Shown here: positions 46,085-60,705 of the stretch, piece after piece
How the letters are laid out: the number at the start of each line of letters is the position of its first letter
How positions within the stretch are numbered: the first letter of the stretch is position 1
Source of the DNA: Meridianimarinicoccus sp. MJW13
GTDB lineage: Bacteria > Pseudomonadota > Alphaproteobacteria > Rhodobacterales > Rhodobacteraceae
Assembly: GCF_014901205.1 (NCBI RefSeq)
Contig: NZ_JACNMU010000004.1
Location: forward strand, 310,001-374,000
Reading direction: 5' to 3'
DNA length: 64,000 nucleotides
Notes under the pieces: generated by a model
What the model was told of the DNA's origin: nothing
The model's database searches: none
Seen by the model: only the letters and a program-made list of their open reading frames with translations
Translations under genes and position numbers: made by a program

Positions 46085-46966
46085 TCAGTTGAAGTCCCGG
46101 AACAGGCGGGTTTCCGTGAACATGCTTTCCAGCCGCTCGATCCGGTCCCGGCCCTGGTTGGGCAGCCGGGTTTGAACCTGCGCCACCAGCGCCTCGACCA
46201 GCAGTTGCAGCGACAGGGTGGAGTCCCAGCCCGAAGGTGCCTCGACCATGGTGCTGAAGACGTGATCGGCGTGGCGGGCGATGGGCGAATTCCACTGGTC
46301 GGTGAAGAGCACGAGGGTGGCGCCGCTTTCGCGGCCCAGGCGGGCCAGTTTCGACAGGTCGCTTTCGTAGCGGCGGATGTCGAAGAGGATCAGGATGGCG
46401 GCGGCGTCCATGTCCAGCAGGTATTGCGGCCAGACAGCCGGGACGCGCCCCAGCGTGGTGACGCCGGGCCGGATGATCTGCAGGTGATTGTAGAGGTGAT
46501 CGGCCACCGACCGGGTGATGCGCCCGCCTTCCAGATAGACCGGGCGGTCGGTGTCGGCCAGAAGGGTCGCGACGGTGTCGAAAGCCTCGGTGTCGATCCG
46601 GTCCAGCGTGCCTTGCAGGTTGCGCACCGCGGCTTCGGCGAAGCGAAACAGGGTGTGGCTGTCGCCATGGTCCCGTTGGGCACGATCCAGCTTGGACGCC
46701 GGTTTTCGGATCTGTTCGGAGATTTCGCGACGCAGCGCGTCTTGCAGCCCGGTGAACCCGTCGAACCCCAGTTTGCGGGCCAGCCGCACCACCGTTGGCG
46801 AGGAAACCTTGGCCGTGTCCGCCAGTTCGGTGATCGATTGCAGCCCGGCCACCGGGTAGTCCTGCAAAAGGGCGCTGACCACTTGCCGCTCTGCCAGTGT
46901 CAGGGTGGCATGGCGTGCCTGCAGGATGTCCTTGACGATGGGTTGGGAAGCCTGGGTGCTGTGCAT
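46085..46966 (-). CDS. RpiR/MurR-family transcriptional regulator
   Basis: Regulator of 293 residues with an N-terminal RpiR helix-turn-helix domain (about 1-77; ELADTAKVSSPTVVRLARKLGFDGF) and a C-terminal SIS domain (about 125-260; PVYLEGGRITRSVADHLYNH, ILILFDIRRYESD) that usually senses a phosphosugar or other metabolite. It diverges from the hydrolase/ligase operon across 81 bases holding a 19-bp palindrome, so it probably controls that operon and itself. The inducer is unknown. Confidence 0.88.
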   Translation of the reverse strand: MHSTQASQPIVKDILQARHATLTLAERQVVSALLQDYPVAGLQSITELADTAKVSSPTVVRLARKLGFDGFTGLQDALRREISEQIRKPASKLDRAQRDHGDSHTLFRFAEAAVRNLQGTLDRIDTEAFDTVATLLADTDRPVYLEGGRITRSVADHLYNHLQIIRPGVTTLGRVPAVWPQYLLDMDAAAILILFDIRRYESDLSKLARLGRESGATLVLFTDQWNSPIARHADHVFSTMVEAPSGWDSTLSLQLLVEALVAQVQTRLPNQGRDRIERLESMFTETRLFRDFN

Positions 46967-47011
46967 GGCGAAAATTTATCGGGGTGCCCGAATGGGGTCT
47001 ACGAAATAATC

Positions 47012-47040
47012 TTGACAGAAATATATTTTCTGTAACGAAT
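47012..47040 (+). promoter_or_regulatory. promoter with overlapping palindromic operator
   Basis: ACAGAAA (47015-47021) and TTTCTGT (47027-47033) are perfect arms around TATAT, and TTGACA (47012-47017) overlaps the left arm as a consensus -35. With a 17-base spacer the -10 would be 47035-47040 (ACGAAT, weak), placing the transcript start at or just before the ATG at 47048. The most likely ligand is the adjacent RpiR regulator. Confidence 0.65.
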
Positions 47041-47047
47041 CCGATCA

Positions 47048-47830
47048 ATGGAAAGCCCTGACCCCCAACCGCTGTTGTCTGCCGCCGAAAGGCCGGCCTG
47101 TGTGCTGCACCGGCCAAAGGGACGCAGTGCTGTGGTTCTGGCCTGCGAACATGCGTCCAATGCCATCCCGGCCCGCCTGAACGGTCTGGGACTGGCGGTG
47201 GCGGACAGGACGTCGCATGCGGCCTGGGACATTGGCGCGCGGGATCTGTCGCTGGCCCTGTCGCAGCGTCTTGACGCGCCTCTGGTCCTGTCGCGGGTGT
47301 CGCGGCTGGTGCATGATTGCAACCGGCCGGTCGGGGCGGCCGATGCGATACCGGCACGTTCGGAAGTGATCGACGTGCCGGGCAACCGCGATCTGACGGC
47401 CACTGCGCGCCGCCGTCGCGAGACCGAGGTTCACGACCCGTTCCACGCCCTGTTGGGCAAGGTTCTGGCGGCGCATCCGGTGCCGCCGGTGCTGGTGACC
47501 CTCCACAGTTTCACCCCGGTCTATCACGGCAAACCGCGCGCGGTGGAGCTTGGGTTCCTGCATGGGGCCGATGATCGGCTGGCCCGTGCCATGCTGGCCG
47601 CCGTGCGCGACGTCTCGGGCTTGCAATCGGCGCTGAACGCCCCCTACGGTCCTTCCGACGGAGTCCTTCACACGCTGGAGGTTCACGCCCTGCCACAGGA
47701 GCGGCTGAACGTGATGATCGAAGTGCGCAACGACTTGCTGCGAACCCCGGCGCAATGCGCCGCCATGGCCGACACGCTGGCCGCCGCCCTGGCCGTGGCG
47801 CTGCCGGCCGCACAGGGCGCCGCCCCGTGA
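47048..47830 (+). CDS. N-formylglutamate amidohydrolase family hydrolase
   Basis: Predicted zinc-type amidohydrolase of 260 residues, PF05013-like. Metal-ligand motifs are ACEHASNAIP (about 34-43), a later HDCNRP (about 88-93) and LHSFTPVYHGK (about 150-160). LNVMIEVRNDLL near the C-terminus is also typical. Canonical members free glutamate from N-formylglutamate in histidine breakdown, but no hut genes are nearby. With the ligase and two dehydrogenases downstream it may instead cleave a gamma-glutamyl amide. No ribosome-binding site precedes the ATG, and the promoter position suggests a leaderless mRNA. Confidence 0.78.
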   Translation: MESPDPQPLLSAAERPACVLHRPKGRSAVVLACEHASNAIPARLNGLGLAVADRTSHAAWDIGARDLSLALSQRLDAPLVLSRVSRLVHDCNRPVGAADAIPARSEVIDVPGNRDLTATARRRRETEVHDPFHALLGKVLAAHPVPPVLVTLHSFTPVYHGKPRAVELGFLHGADDRLARAMLAAVRDVSGLQSALNAPYGPSDGVLHTLEVHALPQERLNVMIEVRNDLLRTPAQCAAMADTLAAALAVALPAAQGAAP

Positions 47831-47903
47831 TCGGCCACCGCCCGCCTGTCCTGTCCCAATCGCCTCTGGCGGCCGCGCGCCGCCGCAACACCGGAGTGCC
47901 GCA

Positions 47904-49268
47904 ATGCCCTCGCCCCTGACCTTTCACGCGCTGGAAACCGCTGTCGCCGAGGGCGATATCGACACCGTTCTGGTCTGCTTCACCGACATGCAGGGCCGGC
48001 TCATGGGCAAGCGCTTCCATGCCGCGAACTTCATCGAACACGGCCACAAGGAAACCCACTGCTGCAACTATCTGCTGGCCACGGATCAGGAGATGGCGAC
48101 GCCGGACGGCTATGCCGCCACCAGCTGGGCGCAGGGCTACGGCGACTATGTGATGCAACCCGACCTGAACACCCTGCGGCCGGTACCCTGGCTGGCGGGC
48201 ACGGCCATGGTGCTGTGCGATGTGCTGGATCATCATACCCACAAGCCGGTGCCGCATGATCCGCGCGCCATCCTGAAGGGGCAGGTGGCCCGTGCCGAAG
48301 CGATGGGGCTGACCCCGATGATGGCCTCGGAGCTGGAGTTCTTCCTGTTCGAGAAGGGCTTCGACGAGCTGCGCAAGGGCGGGTACCGCGACCTGGAGCC
48401 GTTCTCGGGCTACAATCAGGACTATCACATCCTGCAGACCACCAAGGAAGAGGACGTGATGCGGCCGATCCGCAACCACCTGTTCGCGGCGGGCATCCCG
48501 GTGGAAAACACCAAGGGCGAGGCCGAGACCGGGCAAGGGGAGTTGAACATCCGCTATGCCGACGCCCTGTCCTGTGCCGACCACCACACCATCGCCAAGC
48601 ACGCGGTAAAGGAAATCGCCTGGCAGGCGGGCCGCGCCGTGACCTTCCTGCCGAAATGGCGCGCCGACAAGGTGGGGTCATCCTCGCATCTGCACCAGTC
48701 GCTGTGGAAGGGCGACACCCCGGTGTTCCGCGATCCCGACGGCCCGCATGGCATGTCGGCGACGATGCAATCCTTCATGGCTGGCCAGTTGAAATATGCC
48801 GCCGATCTGACCTTCTTCCTGGCGCCCTATGTCAACAGCTACAAACGGTTCATGAAGGGCACCTTCGCGCCCACCAAGGCGGCCTGGTCGGTGGACAACC
48901 GCACCGCGGGTTTCCGGGTTTGCGGTGACGGCACGGCGGCGGTGCGCGTCGAATGCCGGATCGGCGGATCCGACCTGAATCCCTATCTCGCGCAGGCCGC
49001 ATTGCTGGCCGCCGGTCTGGCGGGCATCGAGGAAAAGCTGCCGCTGCCGTCCGAGACCGCCGGCGATGTCTATGCCGCCAAGGAGGCCCCCGAGATCCCG
49101 CAGACCCTGCGCGCCGCGATCGAGACGCTGCGCGGCTCGGCGATGCTGAAAGACGCACTCGGGGCAGACGTGGTGGCCCATTACACCCGCTGCGCCGAGG
49201 TCGAGCAGGAAGCCTTCGATGCCGCCGTCACCGATTGGGAAATTGCCCGCGGGTTCGAGCGTGCGTGA
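47904..49268 (+). CDS. glutamine synthetase-like gamma-glutamyl ligase
   Basis: Type I glutamine synthetase fold, 454 residues. Metal- and substrate-binding motifs present are MMASELEFFLF (about 134-144), GEAETGQGELNIRYADA (about 202-218), SSHLHQSLW (about 258-266) and RVECRIGGSDLNPYLAQAAL. The adenylylation-site region of housekeeping GlnA is not recognisable, and it stands with catabolic genes, so it probably joins glutamate to an amine rather than to ammonia, like PuuA, GlnA4 or GMAS. Candidate amines are ethanolamine or another amino alcohol, by context. It starts 73 bases after the hydrolase gene. Confidence 0.82.
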   Translation: MPSPLTFHALETAVAEGDIDTVLVCFTDMQGRLMGKRFHAANFIEHGHKETHCCNYLLATDQEMATPDGYAATSWAQGYGDYVMQPDLNTLRPVPWLAGTAMVLCDVLDHHTHKPVPHDPRAILKGQVARAEAMGLTPMMASELEFFLFEKGFDELRKGGYRDLEPFSGYNQDYHILQTTKEEDVMRPIRNHLFAAGIPVENTKGEAETGQGELNIRYADALSCADHHTIAKHAVKEIAWQAGRAVTFLPKWRADKVGSSSHLHQSLWKGDTPVFRDPDGPHGMSATMQSFMAGQLKYAADLTFFLAPYVNSYKRFMKGTFAPTKAAWSVDNRTAGFRVCGDGTAAVRVECRIGGSDLNPYLAQAALLAAGLAGIEEKLPLPSETAGDVYAAKEAPEIPQTLRAAIETLRGSAMLKDALGADVVAHYTRCAEVEQEAFDAAVTDWEIARGFERA

Positions 49269-49465: not shown

Positions 49466-50839
49466 GTGACCACTCTGGAGTGTATTTCCCCCATCGACGG
49501 CGCCGTGCTGGTGCGCCGTCCCGCCCTTGCCCCCGATGCCGCTGCCGCCACGGTGGCGCGTGCCCGCGCGGCGCAACCGGCCTGGGCCGCCCGACCGCTG
49601 GCCGAGCGCGTGGCGCTGGTGCTGAAGGCCGTCGAGATCATCGGCAGCCAGACCGACCGCATGGCCGACGAACTGGCCCGCCAGATGGGCCGGCCAATCC
49701 GCTATGGCGGCGAATTCGGCGGGTTCGAGGAACGGGCCAAATACATGGCCTCCATCGCCGACAGCACGCTGGCGCCCATGGTGATCGAGGACAGCGCCGC
49801 CTTTACCCGCAAGATCGTCCGCGAACCGCATGGCGTGGTGCTGGTGGTGGCGCCGTGGAACTATCCCTACATGACCGCGATCAACACCATCGCGCCGGCG
49901 CTGATGGCAGGCAATGTGGTGGTGCTGAAACACGCGACACAAACGCTGCTGGTGGGCGAGCATCTGGCCGAAGCCTTCCATGCGGCGGGCGTGCCCGAGG
50001 ATGTTTTCGTCAATGTGGTGCTGGATCATGACACCACCAGCGGCCTGATCGCCGCGCGGGCCTTCGATTTCGTGAACTTCACCGGCTCGGTCGGCGGTGG
50101 CCGCGCGATGGAGCGGGCCGCGGCAGGCACTTTCACCCCGGTGGGCACCGAATTGGGCGGCAAGGATCCGGGCTATGTTCGGGCCGACGCAGATCTGGAC
50201 GCGGCTGTCGAGGGGCTGATGGATGGCGCGATGTTCAACTCGGGCCAATGCTGCTGCGGGATCGAGCGGATCTATGTCCACGAAAGCCTGTTCGATGCCT
50301 TCGTCGAGAAATGCACCGCGCTGGTGAAAACCCACAAGCTGGGCAACCCGCTGGACCCCGAGACCACAATCGGCCCGATGGCCCATGCCCGCTTTGCCGC
50401 CACGGTGCGCGCCCAGATCGCCGATGCGGTAGCGGCAGGCGCCACGAGCCATCTGGCACCCTTCGAGGGCGACGACGGCGGCGCCTACCTGTCGCCGCAG
50501 ATCCTGACCGGCGTGACCCACGACATGGAGATCATGCGCGAAGAAAGCTTCGGCCCCGTGGTCGGCATCATGCCGGTGGCCAATGACGACGAGGCGATCG
50601 CGCTGATGAACGACTGCCAGTACGGGTTGACGGCGGCGATCTATACCGCCGATGCCGAGGCGGCGGGCCGTATCGCCGATCAGCTGCAATCGGGCACGGT
50701 CTTCATGAACCGCTGCGACTATCTTGATCCGGCGCTGTGCTGGACCGGTTGCAAGGACACCGGATGCGGTGCCGGTCTGTCGGTGCTGGGCTTCCACGCC
50801 CTGACCCGCCCGAAATCCCTTCACTTCAAGAAAGGCTGA
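49466..50839 (+). CDS. NAD(P)-dependent aldehyde dehydrogenase
   Basis: Aldehyde dehydrogenase of 457 residues. The cofactor segment is VVAPWNYPYMTAINTI (about 129-144), the catalytic Glu is in GTELGGKDPGYV (about 231) and the catalytic Cys is in MFNSGQCCCGIERI (about 255-268), which has three adjacent cysteines. It is near the shorter end for the superfamily. It starts at GTG (49466) behind AAGGA, after a 197-bp gap that shows no gene or clear terminator. The next gene begins 3 bases after its stop. I infer oxidation of an amino aldehyde made by the following alcohol dehydrogenase. Confidence 0.85.
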   Translation: MTTLECISPIDGAVLVRRPALAPDAAAATVARARAAQPAWAARPLAERVALVLKAVEIIGSQTDRMADELARQMGRPIRYGGEFGGFEERAKYMASIADSTLAPMVIEDSAAFTRKIVREPHGVVLVVAPWNYPYMTAINTIAPALMAGNVVVLKHATQTLLVGEHLAEAFHAAGVPEDVFVNVVLDHDTTSGLIAARAFDFVNFTGSVGGGRAMERAAAGTFTPVGTELGGKDPGYVRADADLDAAVEGLMDGAMFNSGQCCCGIERIYVHESLFDAFVEKCTALVKTHKLGNPLDPETTIGPMAHARFAATVRAQIADAVAAGATSHLAPFEGDDGGAYLSPQILTGVTHDMEIMREESFGPVVGIMPVANDDEAIALMNDCQYGLTAAIYTADAEAAGRIADQLQSGTVFMNRCDYLDPALCWTGCKDTGCGAGLSVLGFHALTRPKSLHFKKG

Positions 50840-50842
50840 GCC

Positions 50843-51988
50843 ATGAGCCCGGTTGCCAATTGGTCCTATCCCACTGCCATCCGTTTCGGCGCCGGCCGGA
50901 TCTCCGAGATCGCCGAGGCCTGTGCGGTCGCCGGCATCACGCGCCCGCTGCTGGTCACCGACAAGGGGCTGGCCGGGCTGGAGATCACCGCCCGGACCCT
51001 GGACCTGATGGAGGCCGCCGGGCTGGGTCGCGCCATGTTCTCGGATGTGGATCCCAACCCGACCGGGGCAAATGTCGAGGCCGGGGTCGCCGCCTACAGG
51101 GCCGGGGGCCATGACGGGGTGATCGCATTTGGTGGCGGCTCGGGGCTGGATCTGGGCAAGGTGGTTGCGTTTCAGGCCGGGCAGACCCGCCCTTTGTGGG
51201 ATTTCGAGGATATTGGCGACTGGTGGACCCGCGCCGATGCCGCGGCCATTGCGCCGGTCGTGGCCGTGCCGACCACCGCCGGGACCGGCTCGGAAGTGGG
51301 ACGCGCGGGCATTATCACCAATGAAGAGGCCGCCGAGAAGAAGATCATCTTCCACCCGAAGATGTTGCCGGTGCAGGTGATCTGCGATCCGGAACTGACC
51401 GTGGGCATGCCGCCCGCGATCACCGCCGGCACCGGGATGGACGCCTTCGCCCATTGTCTTGAGGCCTATTGCTCGCCGCACTATCACCCGATGTCGCAGG
51501 GCATGGCGCTGGAAGGCATGCGGCTGGTCAAGGAGTACCTGCCGCGCGCCTATGCCGATGGGGCGGATCTTGAGGCCCGCGCGCATATGATGTCGGCGGC
51601 GGCCATGGGGGCTACGGCCTTCCAGAAGGGGCTGGGCGCGATCCATGCCCTCAGCCACCCCCTGGGCGCGCATCATCACACCCATCACGGCACCACCAAC
51701 GCGGTCTGCATGGTCGAGGTGCTGAAGTTCAACCGCCCCGCCGCAGAGGACGTCATCACCCGCGCCGCCGCCTATCTGGGCATCGACGGCGGCTATGACG
51801 GGTTCATCGCCTTCGTGGACGCTTTGAACCGCCGGTTGAACATTCCCGCCACCCTGACCGAGCTGGGAGTCACCGATCCCGATCTGGACCGGCTGACCGC
51901 CGATGCGCTGCGCGACCCTTCCGTCGGCGGCAACCCGGTCAAGATGACGGCCGAAAACACCCGCGCGCTGTTCGAAGCCCTGCTGTGA
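50843..51988 (+). CDS. iron-containing alcohol dehydrogenase
   Basis: Fe-dependent group III alcohol dehydrogenase of 381 residues. NAD-binding GGGSGLDLGK (about 97-106) and VPTTAGTGSEVGRAGIITNE (about 143-162) are visible. Metal ligands are expected from AGTGMDAFAHCLEAYCSP and from HALSHPLGAHHHTHHGTTNA (about 269-288), a histidine-rich stretch denser than usual. It follows the aldehyde dehydrogenase gene by 3 bases; the pair would take a primary alcohol to an acid. Its TGA overlaps the GTG start of the di-haem gene. Confidence 0.87.
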   Translation: MSPVANWSYPTAIRFGAGRISEIAEACAVAGITRPLLVTDKGLAGLEITARTLDLMEAAGLGRAMFSDVDPNPTGANVEAGVAAYRAGGHDGVIAFGGGSGLDLGKVVAFQAGQTRPLWDFEDIGDWWTRADAAAIAPVVAVPTTAGTGSEVGRAGIITNEEAAEKKIIFHPKMLPVQVICDPELTVGMPPAITAGTGMDAFAHCLEAYCSPHYHPMSQGMALEGMRLVKEYLPRAYADGADLEARAHMMSAAAMGATAFQKGLGAIHALSHPLGAHHHTHHGTTNAVCMVEVLKFNRPAAEDVITRAAAYLGIDGGYDGFIAFVDALNRRLNIPATLTELGVTDPDLDRLTADALRDPSVGGNPVKMTAENTRALFEALL

Positions 51989-53337
51989 GCCTTTCGCAGC
52001 GGGTACGGGCGGGCGGGCACCCGGTTCTGACGCTGATCCTCGGGATCGGGGCCGGGGTCGGGGCCGCTTGGGCCGATCCGCTGCCCGCGCCGCTGGCTGA
52101 CGCCGACTATCTGCCGGTCAACCGGGCCGCCGCCGAGATCGGGCAGCTGCTGTTCTACGATCCGATCCTGTCGGGCAATCGCAATATCTCGTGTGCCACC
52201 TGTCATCATCCGAAATTCGCCACCAGCGACGGGGTCAGCCTGTCGCTGGGCGAGGGCGGGCAGGGGCTTGGCCCCGAGCGCAGTGTCAATCCCGCCAACC
52301 CGCCCGAGCAACGCATCCCGCGCAATGCGCCGGCGCTGTTCAACATGGGCGCCCGCGAGATCACGGTGCTGTTCCACGATGGCCGGATCGAGGTGGACCG
52401 GACCCGCAAAGCCGGCTTCCGCACCCCGTTGGAGGACGAGATGGTCACCGGGTTCGCGGGCATCCTGTCGGGGCAGACCATGTTTCCGGTGCTGAGCCAG
52501 GACGAGATGGCGGGACATTATTCCGAGAACGAGGTCAGCCGCGCGGTGCGGCAGGGGCTGATCACCGGGCCGGGCGGGGCCTGGGATCTGATTGCCGCCC
52601 GCGTCGCGGCCCTTCCTGCCTATGAAGCGGGGTTCGCGGCCGCCTATCCCGAGACCGCGACGCGAGGCATTGCCTTCACCGATATCTCCAACGCGGTGGC
52701 CGAGTTCATGGCCTTTGAATGGCGCAGCGACACCAGCGCCTATGATGCCCATCTTCGCGACGAGACGCCGTTGCAGGGCACGGCGGCCGAAGGCATGGCG
52801 CTGTTCTATGGCAAGGCCGGGTGCAGCACCTGTCACTCCGGTCCGCTGCTGACCGACCACGGGTTTCACGCCATGGGCCAGCCGCAGCTTGGCCCCGGCA
52901 AGGCGGCGCGCTTTGAAAACCACGCCCGCGACGAAGGCCGATTTCGGGTGACAGGTGACGCGGATGCCCTGTTTGCCTTCCGCACCCCCAGCCTGCGCAA
53001 TGTCACCCGCACCGGGCCGTGGGGCCATGCCGGGGCTTATTCGGATCTGCGGGCGTTCCTGACCGCGCATCTGGACCCGGACAGCGCCATCACCAGCTAC
53101 GACCGTGGACAGGCGGTGCTGCCGGATCTGCCGGGAGTTTCGGATTGGCGCATCCTCGACGATCCCGCCGCCAGTGCCGAGATTGCCGTGCGGGCCACCT
53201 TGCCGCCGGTGTCCTTGACGACGACAGAGATGGAGGCGCTGTTGGCTTTCCTGACCGCTTTGGAAGACCCCGTGGCGCTCAGCGGGCGTTTGGGCATTCC
53301 CGACCGGGTGCCCAGTGGTCTGTCCATAGATCGCTGA
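51985..53337 (+). CDS. MauG/cytochrome-c-peroxidase-like di-haem protein
   Basis: Periplasmic c-type di-haem enzyme of 450 residues. A signal-like N-terminus ends near GVGAAWA, before DPLPAPLA. Haem-binding motifs are CATCH (70-74) and CSTCH (280-284). RNAPALFNMGAR and FRTPSLRNVTRTGPWGHAG are typical of the MauG/MbnH/CCP group. Translation probably starts at GTG 51985, inside the preceding alcohol dehydrogenase stop (GTGA), which places it in the same operon. It could act as a peroxidase, or oxidise residues of a partner protein as MauG and MbnH do. The convergent beta-propeller gene is a possible partner. Confidence 0.85.
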   Translation: MSLSQRVRAGGHPVLTLILGIGAGVGAAWADPLPAPLADADYLPVNRAAAEIGQLLFYDPILSGNRNISCATCHHPKFATSDGVSLSLGEGGQGLGPERSVNPANPPEQRIPRNAPALFNMGAREITVLFHDGRIEVDRTRKAGFRTPLEDEMVTGFAGILSGQTMFPVLSQDEMAGHYSENEVSRAVRQGLITGPGGAWDLIAARVAALPAYEAGFAAAYPETATRGIAFTDISNAVAEFMAFEWRSDTSAYDAHLRDETPLQGTAAEGMALFYGKAGCSTCHSGPLLTDHGFHAMGQPQLGPGKAARFENHARDEGRFRVTGDADALFAFRTPSLRNVTRTGPWGHAGAYSDLRAFLTAHLDPDSAITSYDRGQAVLPDLPGVSDWRILDDPAASAEIAVRATLPPVSLTTTEMEALLAFLTALEDPVALSGRLGIPDRVPSGLSIDR

Positions 53338-59014: not shown

Positions 59015-60439
59015 CTACGAGCCCGAGAGCCGCTCGAAGTCGGCTTTCGGCAAGTAGTCTGCCCCATGAGTCTGAAGGCGGGCAAGCACTGGCCCATCAG
59101 GATCCTCGCCCTGTTCTTCCAGATACGGGGCGAGGTCCGACACGGCGTTGAATATCCAGACCGCTTCACCGGTGGTGATATCCACCTCGATCACCCGCCC
59201 GTTGATGGTTTCCGAGATGAGCATGTGGCGTCCGTCAGGACTTTCACGCACCGCGCCGGAAACATCCGCATCCAGATCGCCCCCAGCCTGTTCTGGAGAG
59301 GTTGGGAAGATGGTCCGGGCCGTGCGCTTGGCCAGATTCACGCGCAGGATGCGGGTCCCGCTGCTGGTGGCTTGACCCCCCTGGTTGTCAAAGACCAGCA
59401 CCGTTCCATCGGCCAGAACCCGCGGGCTGTGCTGGGCAACCATCGGGCCGAAATAGTGATACTTGATCACGCCCGTGTCCCGGTCGAGGATCACCAGCGA
59501 GGAACTTGAACGCAGCGACACCAGGAGGTCGCCTGCATTCACGTCGTCCAGGGTCTTGGCCAGTGCCGGAGTGACCTCAACCGCGGCGTTGACGTGGTAG
59601 GGGTCGCAATCGTTGCGCACCGCATAGGCCAGCCCCTGCATGTCCGAGGCGCGAACCGAATCGTCCAGGAAATAGGTTGTCGCCTCGTTGCCATCCGGAG
59701 AGATGATCGACACGCCCTCCTGAAAGACCGAGCCCAGCTTGCAGTCGGTGCGCACCTGGGTCGCGGCGACAAATTTCGTCGCGGTTTCAACCGTGGCGGC
59801 GGGGGCCAGGATGGTGCCGTCGTCGGTGACCGTGGGCCAGTGGTGGCTATGATCGGGGCGCACCCAATCGACCGCGCCCTCCCACGACACGCGCGCGATG
59901 CCGACGTGATAGGGGTACATGTTGCGCGCCTGGAAGGTAACGATCAGATCGCCCTGATCGGTCATGTCCAGCCCCTGCACATAGACGTTTTCGGCCTGCG
60001 CCTTGCCCGAGAAATCGGCCAGGCGCTCGGGCGGGAACAGGGCTTCGGGGTCCACCTCCCACGTATGGAACACCGTTCCTTCATGATCCATGACATAGGC
60101 CAGGCATCCGAAGGTCGGGCAAAGGTCACGGCGATGATGAAAACCGCCGGTCATCAGGATCAGTTGATCGTCCGGAACTGGCCCCAGTGTGGAGGTGGAG
60201 TCCACGTCCGACTCTTCGGTGGCAAGCCGGACGACGGTATAGGGAAGTTCCTGATCTTCCAGTTCCCCAAGCGCGTCAAATCCGGCCTTGATCCAAACCA
60301 GCTGCTTGTGCGGGAAGATGCGGTATTCCATGGCTGCCACGCCCCAGACGAAGGCCAGCAGAGAGACGCCACAGACAAAGGCGATTTCTGGGAGGTGGCG
60401 CACCAATGTGGACCCGGTTTTTCGCGAAGCTTTTGACAT
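59015..60439 (-). CDS. membrane-anchored arylsulfotransferase-family protein
   Basis: ASST-like beta-propeller protein of 474 residues with one N-terminal membrane helix (about 17-38; IAFVCGVSLLAFVWGVAAM). Sections typical of the family include the repeated pattern of ...TW or ...VDW followed by a periplasmic propeller blade, DHSHHWPTVTDDGTI (about 196-210), HSPRVLADGTVLVFDNQGG (about 338-356) and ETINGRVIEVD. Classical ASST moves sulfate between phenols; here a paralogue of unknown substrate is possible. Its stop lies 6 bases from the convergent putA stop. No dsbA/dsbB-like partner genes are adjacent. Confidence 0.72.
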   Translation of the reverse strand: MSKASRKTGSTLVRHLPEIAFVCGVSLLAFVWGVAAMEYRIFPHKQLVWIKAGFDALGELEDQELPYTVVRLATEESDVDSTSTLGPVPDDQLILMTGGFHHRRDLCPTFGCLAYVMDHEGTVFHTWEVDPEALFPPERLADFSGKAQAENVYVQGLDMTDQGDLIVTFQARNMYPYHVGIARVSWEGAVDWVRPDHSHHWPTVTDDGTILAPAATVETATKFVAATQVRTDCKLGSVFQEGVSIISPDGNEATTYFLDDSVRASDMQGLAYAVRNDCDPYHVNAAVEVTPALAKTLDDVNAGDLLVSLRSSSSLVILDRDTGVIKYHYFGPMVAQHSPRVLADGTVLVFDNQGGQATSSGTRILRVNLAKRTARTIFPTSPEQAGGDLDADVSGAVRESPDGRHMLISETINGRVIEVDITTGEAVWIFNAVSDLAPYLEEQGEDPDGPVLARLQTHGADYLPKADFERLSGS

Positions 60440-60705
60440 ATAATTTTTCGGTACCCTGAGAAAACTTCAAAATATTCACAGTCTATAGTGGGACCCGTCA
60501 AGATTATTTCGTTAACGCGTCGCGACAAGCGGACTGGCGCTCATTCTGGTGGTCGGCGTTGGCCGGTTTCTCACTGGCATGCGTTCGGACAATCGACCGC
60601 AACGCCCGAAACGGATGTCCGGGAACGAAACCCGGTTCCGCTGGCTTTACCTCACGGGGTGCAGAGGCGAGACTGCGGCCCAACGACTGAACGAGGACCA
60701 GCCAC

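Follow-up and report, generated by a model that had tools for sequence, protein, structure and literature searches.

The window analysed here is a 64,000-nt stretch of the Meridianimarinicoccus sp. MJW13 genome (contig NZ_JACNMU010000004.1, positions 310,001 to 374,000). It carries an rpiR-type regulator gene divergent from an operon whose first gene encodes a hydrolase of the N-formylglutamate amidohydrolase family (FGase), with an intergenic region of 81 bp and 41% G+C between the two. The regulator gene has an intact reading frame, and its product belongs to the RpiR/MurR family (HTH_6, 53.1 bits against a Pfam cut-off of 28.3; SIS, 52.7 bits against 25). The hydrolase is assigned to its family by PF05013 (124.7 bits, cut-off 28.9). 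Comparison of this promoter with its orthologues makes it fairly probable that RpiR controls the divergent promoter, that the FGase mRNA is leaderless, that the family's operator is the palindrome TGTAR-N6-YTACA, and that a conspicuous perfect dyad at the −35 box is mostly a by-product of the elements it overlaps.

RpiR was searched in 61 genomes, 33 of which gave a match, and a 17-row RpiR alignment was used for a profile search of genome contigs. The best 80 of 570 candidates were kept, so that the sample leans to close relatives; added to the 17, they gave 97 loci for comparison, a set outside which loci L018–L037 lie. FGase was divergent from RpiR and nearby in 95 of the 97; the two exceptions, which were dropped, are L048, where FGase gave no hit, and L102, where the hits are separated by 1792 bp. 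Of the 95 divergent loci, 94 have an intergenic TTGAC, and in 89 of those 94 it is extended to TTGACA. Removal of L116, which lacks TTGAC, and of five duplicates left 89 distinct promoters. The TTGACA chosen was always the last one before FGase.

Counted from the first T of TTGAC, 57 of the 89 promoters have an in-frame ATG or GTG at 35–37 nt (40 at 36, 10 at 37 and 7 at 35). With the usual placement of a −35 box, this spacing puts the predicted +1 on the start codon. The other 32 comprise 29 leader-type loci and three (L012, L075 and L096, with starts at 34 or 39) that were set apart as “near”. The Shine-Dalgarno (SD) sequence behaves accordingly across the set: an anti-SD duplex energy of −6 or lower was found at none of the 57 leaderless-type starts (mean −0.45), compared with 9% of random 18-mers and 13 of the 29 leader-type loci at their first possible start. 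Random 18-mers average −2.78, whereas the window ATG gives +0.1; the FGase frame is closed 15 nt upstream of this ATG. A leaderless FGase mRNA is thus a well-supported prediction from spacing and SD absence, in line with the sequence-only reading, which had noted that this ATG lacks an SD and had placed the transcription start at or next to it. The spacing is not explained by an operator lying over the start, because it is kept in 25 of the 57 leaderless-type loci where that operator (O2, below) is not recognisable by consensus score; conversely, 18 O2-bearing loci have no start at 35–37 nt.

We considered and rejected the idea that leaderless TTGACA promoters are a genome-wide habit: behind 209 other TTGACA sites nearby (1.38 Mb), only one of 28 qualifying ATG starts fell at 35–37 nt. 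With TTGAC in place of the full hexamer, starts at 35–37 nt averaged 3.67 per position, against 1.67 and 2.00 in the flanks and 3.40 and 3.60 farther out, so a weak rise is possible. The window's own genome contains TTGACA-N30-ATG 16 times (reversed control, 6), three of them, FGase included, followed by an open reading frame of at least 100 codons. One of these arrangements (G000:C15:72403-72441, − strand, L134) precedes a 202-codon frame that resembles a TetR-type regulator by eye and could be a second leaderless gene.

Scanning every register of the 89 loci for 5-N6-5 palindromes gave peaks at −25/−24 relative to TTGAC (30 and 23 loci with at least 4 of 5 pairs) and at +19 (36 loci), with at most 11 elsewhere. 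The motif at both peaks is TGTAR-N6-YTACA, one copy lying upstream of the −35 box (O1) and the other over the −10 region and start (O2), with centres about 44 bp apart in the relatives. A third copy, O3, occurs on the rpiR side at −54/−55 in 30 of 88 loci. At random places, consensus scores of 8 or more out of 10 turn up at a rate of no more than 0.0002. In ten chosen genomes the exact motif occurs at 21 places (0–4 per genome), and the reversed control is commoner, at 6–22 per genome. Eleven of the 21 copies lie at this promoter, in eight of the ten genomes; this is partly expected because these loci helped to define the motif, and the weight therefore falls on the scarcity of copies elsewhere. 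The window's genome has one exact copy, away from this promoter (C3:57630, L033), and G001 has none. The comparative evidence that RpiR recognises this motif is fair, and TGTAR-N6-YTACA is probably the ancestral operator of the family. A link between the G that follows TTGACA and O2 was also tried and rejected, since 32 of the 46 O2-bearing loci have the G, as do 20 of the 29 that lack O2.

The sequence-only reading had instead assigned the operator to a different element, ACAGAAA-TATAT-TTTCTGT, overlapping the −35 TTGACA. The dyad is there as described: both 7-bp arms are perfect, around a 5-nt centre (TATAT) that is not self-complementary, and ACA is shared with the −35 box. Its identification as the RpiR operator did not survive comparison, the dyad being perfect (7/7 pairs) in 1 of the 89 orthologous promoters and 6/7 in one other, with TGTAR-N6-YTACA conserved elsewhere in the region; as an operator of the whole family it was rejected. 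Within the window, the 19-mer ACAGAAATATATTTTCTGT has no other match within three mismatches. In the 4.0-Mb genome ACAGAAAN5TTTCTGT has a single perfect match, four more places match with two mismatches, and the reversed control pattern gave three. Dinucleotide shuffles of the 81-bp region contained a perfect 7+7 dyad with a loop of 3–8 in 59 of 2000 cases (loop of 5 in 11 of 2000), so that such a dyad is only mildly unusual. Its arms draw on the −35 box (ACAG) and, for the TGT at 47031-47033, on O2, whose left half supplies it; mostly the dyad appears to be a by-product of the two. A visible perfect palindrome, plausible as an operator at first sight, would thus not be the conserved one.

Table 1 Genes and promoter elements of the rpiR/FGase locus (window coordinates)
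Feature	Position	Strand	Comment
rpiR-type regulator gene	46085..46966	−	HTH_6 and SIS domains; divergent from FGase in 95/97 loci
FGase-family hydrolase gene (PF05013)	47048..47830	+	First gene of the operon
Glutamine-synthetase-family ligase gene	47904..49268	+	
Aldehyde dehydrogenase gene	49466..50839	+	
Iron-containing alcohol dehydrogenase gene	50843..51988	+	
Di-haem peroxidase/MauG-like gene	51985..53337	+	Same place in strain SC52: cytochrome-c peroxidase gene
−35 box TTGACA, FGase promoter	47012..47017	+	Near-invariant in relatives
Candidate −10 ACGAAT	47035..47040	+	17-nt spacing; 3/6 to TATAAT
FGase start codon ATG	47048..47050	+	Predicted +1 or adjoining it
Dyad ACAGAAA-TATAT-TTTCTGT, ACAGAAATATATTTTCTGT	47015..47033		Probably not the conserved operator
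O2 register TGTAACGAATCCGATC	47031..47046		Left half intact, right half decayed
O1 register CCGAATGGGGTCTACG	46988..47003		Right half kept, left half decayed

Several observations weigh against the favoured reading, and some of them fit an FGase mRNA with a leader, arising either from an upstream start at another promoter or from translation at a later codon. The window −10 is weak, and a consensus promoter scan did not list the + strand FGase promoter, since ACGAAT matches TATAAT at only three of six positions; in relatives this register reads, for example, ACTAAT or CCTAAT. The sole site that the scan listed, TTGATC-N17-TATATT on the − strand, spans 47048-47020 (chance mean 0.6). GTG serves as the start in 12 of the 57 leaderless-type loci, despite the preference of leaderless initiation for AUG. 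Another in-frame ATG stands 9 nt further upstream in 24 of the 57; it falls within the −10 and could be used only with an earlier transcription start. In 41, the window included, a later in-frame start precedes the core (in the window, a TTG at codon 9 and a GTG at codon 18). The contrast in SD content is also flattered by the figure of 25 of 29 leader-type loci at −6 or lower, which is lenient, taking the best of several possible starts. We nevertheless consider a leader very unlikely. In the promoter profile this −35 box alone is near-invariant, the SD is absent at the start in all 57, and an ESPLL-like conserved N-terminal pattern, found a few residues past the start, falls before or at codon 9 of the window protein, which argues against initiation further in.

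The remaining difficulties concern the operator in the window itself. By a site matrix built without loci L001–L005, the window has no good copy: O1, O2 and O3 score −7.2, 0.2 and −16.3, whereas O2 scores 13.7 in L002 and 18.5–21.3 in L003–L005, of which L003 and L005 are assigned to the window's genus. It is alone among the 57 leaderless-type loci in lacking any site of at least 8 (4 of 29 leader-type and one of the three “near” loci also lack one). The left half of O2, TGTAACGA, is the region's best half-site. The best 16-mer, 47002-47017 (score 8.8), coincides with the −35 box and is not read as an operator because 24 of the 89 loci reach 8 in that register. Pairing in the dyad register is also raised across the set, averaging 2.89 of 7 against 1.42–1.93 when slid, which we infer to be the conserved ACAG of the −35 box facing a conserved CTGT at the left of O2. 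Regulation in the window locus may be relaxed, or the site may have moved, possibly to the dyad. That the dyad has replaced the ancestral sites in this species and represses by covering the −35 box and spacer would accord with its uniqueness in the genome and with the intact rpiR frame at the only leaderless-type locus without a good site; we think it unlikely, given the single perfect instance in the family, the frequency of comparable dyads in shuffles, half-sites that face outward relative to TGTAR-N6-YTACA, and a helix-turn-helix region that aligns closely with those of relatives bearing that motif. The more specific version, in which RpiR was rewired to an outward-facing dyad made of the −35 box and one surviving half-site after decay of TGTAR-N6-YTACA, with the leaderless spacing held fixed, seems quite unlikely; if true, the operator would have been exchanged while the leaderless start stayed in place. 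A further reading, also rather unlikely, is that RpiR activates, or both activates and represses, at least in the O2-less lineages, and does so from O1, which lies some 53 bp ahead of +1. Consensus scoring finds 25 of the 57 leaderless-type loci without O2, and by matrix O1 and O3 are kept without O2 in 17 of the 57; HexR, of the RpiR family, can also activate. On the other side, O2 over the −10 and start in many other loci fits repression, and characterised RpiR proteins are mostly repressors.

Under the favoured reading, RNA polymerase would use TTGACA (47012) with the weak −10 at about 47035-47040 and, judging from the conserved spacing, would begin transcription on the A of the ATG at 47048 or no more than about one base away. 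The mRNA of the first gene would then be leaderless, so that the ribosome must start on a 5′-terminal AUG. In the absence of inducer, RpiR may hold O1 and O2 and keep polymerase off the −10 and +1, and O3 on the rpiR side could provide autoregulation. On induction, transcription would proceed from the AUG and ribosomes would load at the 5′ end. Lineages without O2 would need regulation from elsewhere, for example from O1, where activation is conceivable. In the window lineage, the sites appear to have decayed to half-sites, and repression is probably weak or exerted through the remaining half of O2. As for function, the gene content suggests an amine or amino alcohol as the probable substrate, processed by way of gamma-glutamylated intermediates. 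An amidohydrolase, a ligase and alcohol and aldehyde dehydrogenases fit a gamma-glutamylation pathway by analogy. The window ligase scored 206.5 bits against the gamma-glutamylputrescine synthetase model NF045547, below its cut-off of 650.

HexR shares the HTH_6 and SIS architecture of the window RpiR, and its motif has a TGTA-type half-site resembling half of TGTAR-N6-YTACA. The target genes are unrelated, however, and the window RpiR falls far under the HexR subfamily model NF008451 (47.7 bits, cut-off 296). We recognised no paper on the RpiR/FGase unit in a search of an open literature collection, and the same collection yielded no paper on leaderless transcription start sites in Rhodobacteraceae.

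The nearest precedent is a leaderless operon of Rhodobacter sphaeroides that is controlled by AcuR (PMC3017554). The acuR-acuI-dddL mRNA begins exactly at the AUG by 5′ rapid amplification of cDNA ends and has no SD; when the ATG of acuR was replaced by GTG, expression fell strongly but was not abolished (PMC3017554). The two systems belong to the same broad bacterial group and share a catabolic operon under a repressor, an inverted repeat that overlaps the promoter, and relatives that are predicted to be leaderless as well (PMC3017554). They differ in that the repressor there is of the TetR family and is the first gene, whereas the operon studied here begins with an enzyme gene and has a divergent regulator of the RpiR family; the acuR operator was tested by mutation, while the one proposed here comes from sequence comparison. 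Leaderless genes are not rare in alphaproteobacteria, judging from two surveys that give 171 leaderless start sites in Sinorhizobium meliloti (PMC3616915) and 375 leaderless mRNAs in Caulobacter (PMC4117421). Those were mapped by RNA sequencing, whereas the FGase case is deduced from spacing. All mapped leaderless transcripts of S. meliloti start with AUG in the same account (PMC3616915), unlike the 12 rpiR/FGase loci that would use GTG.

Across the 89 loci, one orthologous promoter thus appears in two forms: in 57 the start codon coincides with the predicted +1, and in 29 the leader is longer. The operator copies vary independently of this. With such a natural promoter series one can test whether leaderlessness is itself under selection. 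On a quick tree of the RpiR proteins, the leaderless label needs five changes, three of them forced by starred branches, against 26.4 when labels are shuffled; the state is clustered yet has changed several times. The Sinorhizobium/Ensifer branch contributes nine loci, all of them leader-type, as is L008, which is assigned to the window's genus and has a weak SD (−3.0). The abstract of PMC3160421 makes the general point that the starts of orthologous genes can change between the SD-led and the leaderless kind. Two contigs of metagenome-assembled genomes labelled Cocleimonas (Thiotrichaceae; L053 and L056) carry a leaderless-type locus and nest among alphaproteobacterial ones in the tree, through either transfer or mis-binning.

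Annotated relatives keep the same gene order with tripartite ATP-independent periplasmic (TRAP) transporter genes between FGase and the glutamine-synthetase-family gene; these had matches in 68–71 of 79 loci of relatives. S. meliloti has an amino acid permease in that place. The TRAP transporter genes had no match in the window, where the ligase gene begins about 70 bases past FGase (47830-47904).

Two minor features lie at the rpiR end of the intergenic region. Directly before the rpiR start codon, a small terminator-like hairpin (46979-46991, − strand) combines a 5-bp stem with a T-rich tail, and by eye no clear SD precedes that start codon. Elsewhere in the window, the 16-mer ACGAAATAATCTTGAC located at the FGase −35 box (47001-47016, +) recurs at 60497-60512 (−), upstream of an arylsulfotransferase-like gene (59015-60439, −). 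No match like the latter was seen among the TTGAC sites listed for L144. We rejected it as a second target because the gene downstream is not conserved with the FGase locus, its best relative (52% identical) being in G005, one of the genomes that gave no match in the RpiR search. The sequence GAAANNATCTTGAC has just two copies in the whole genome, at these two sites.
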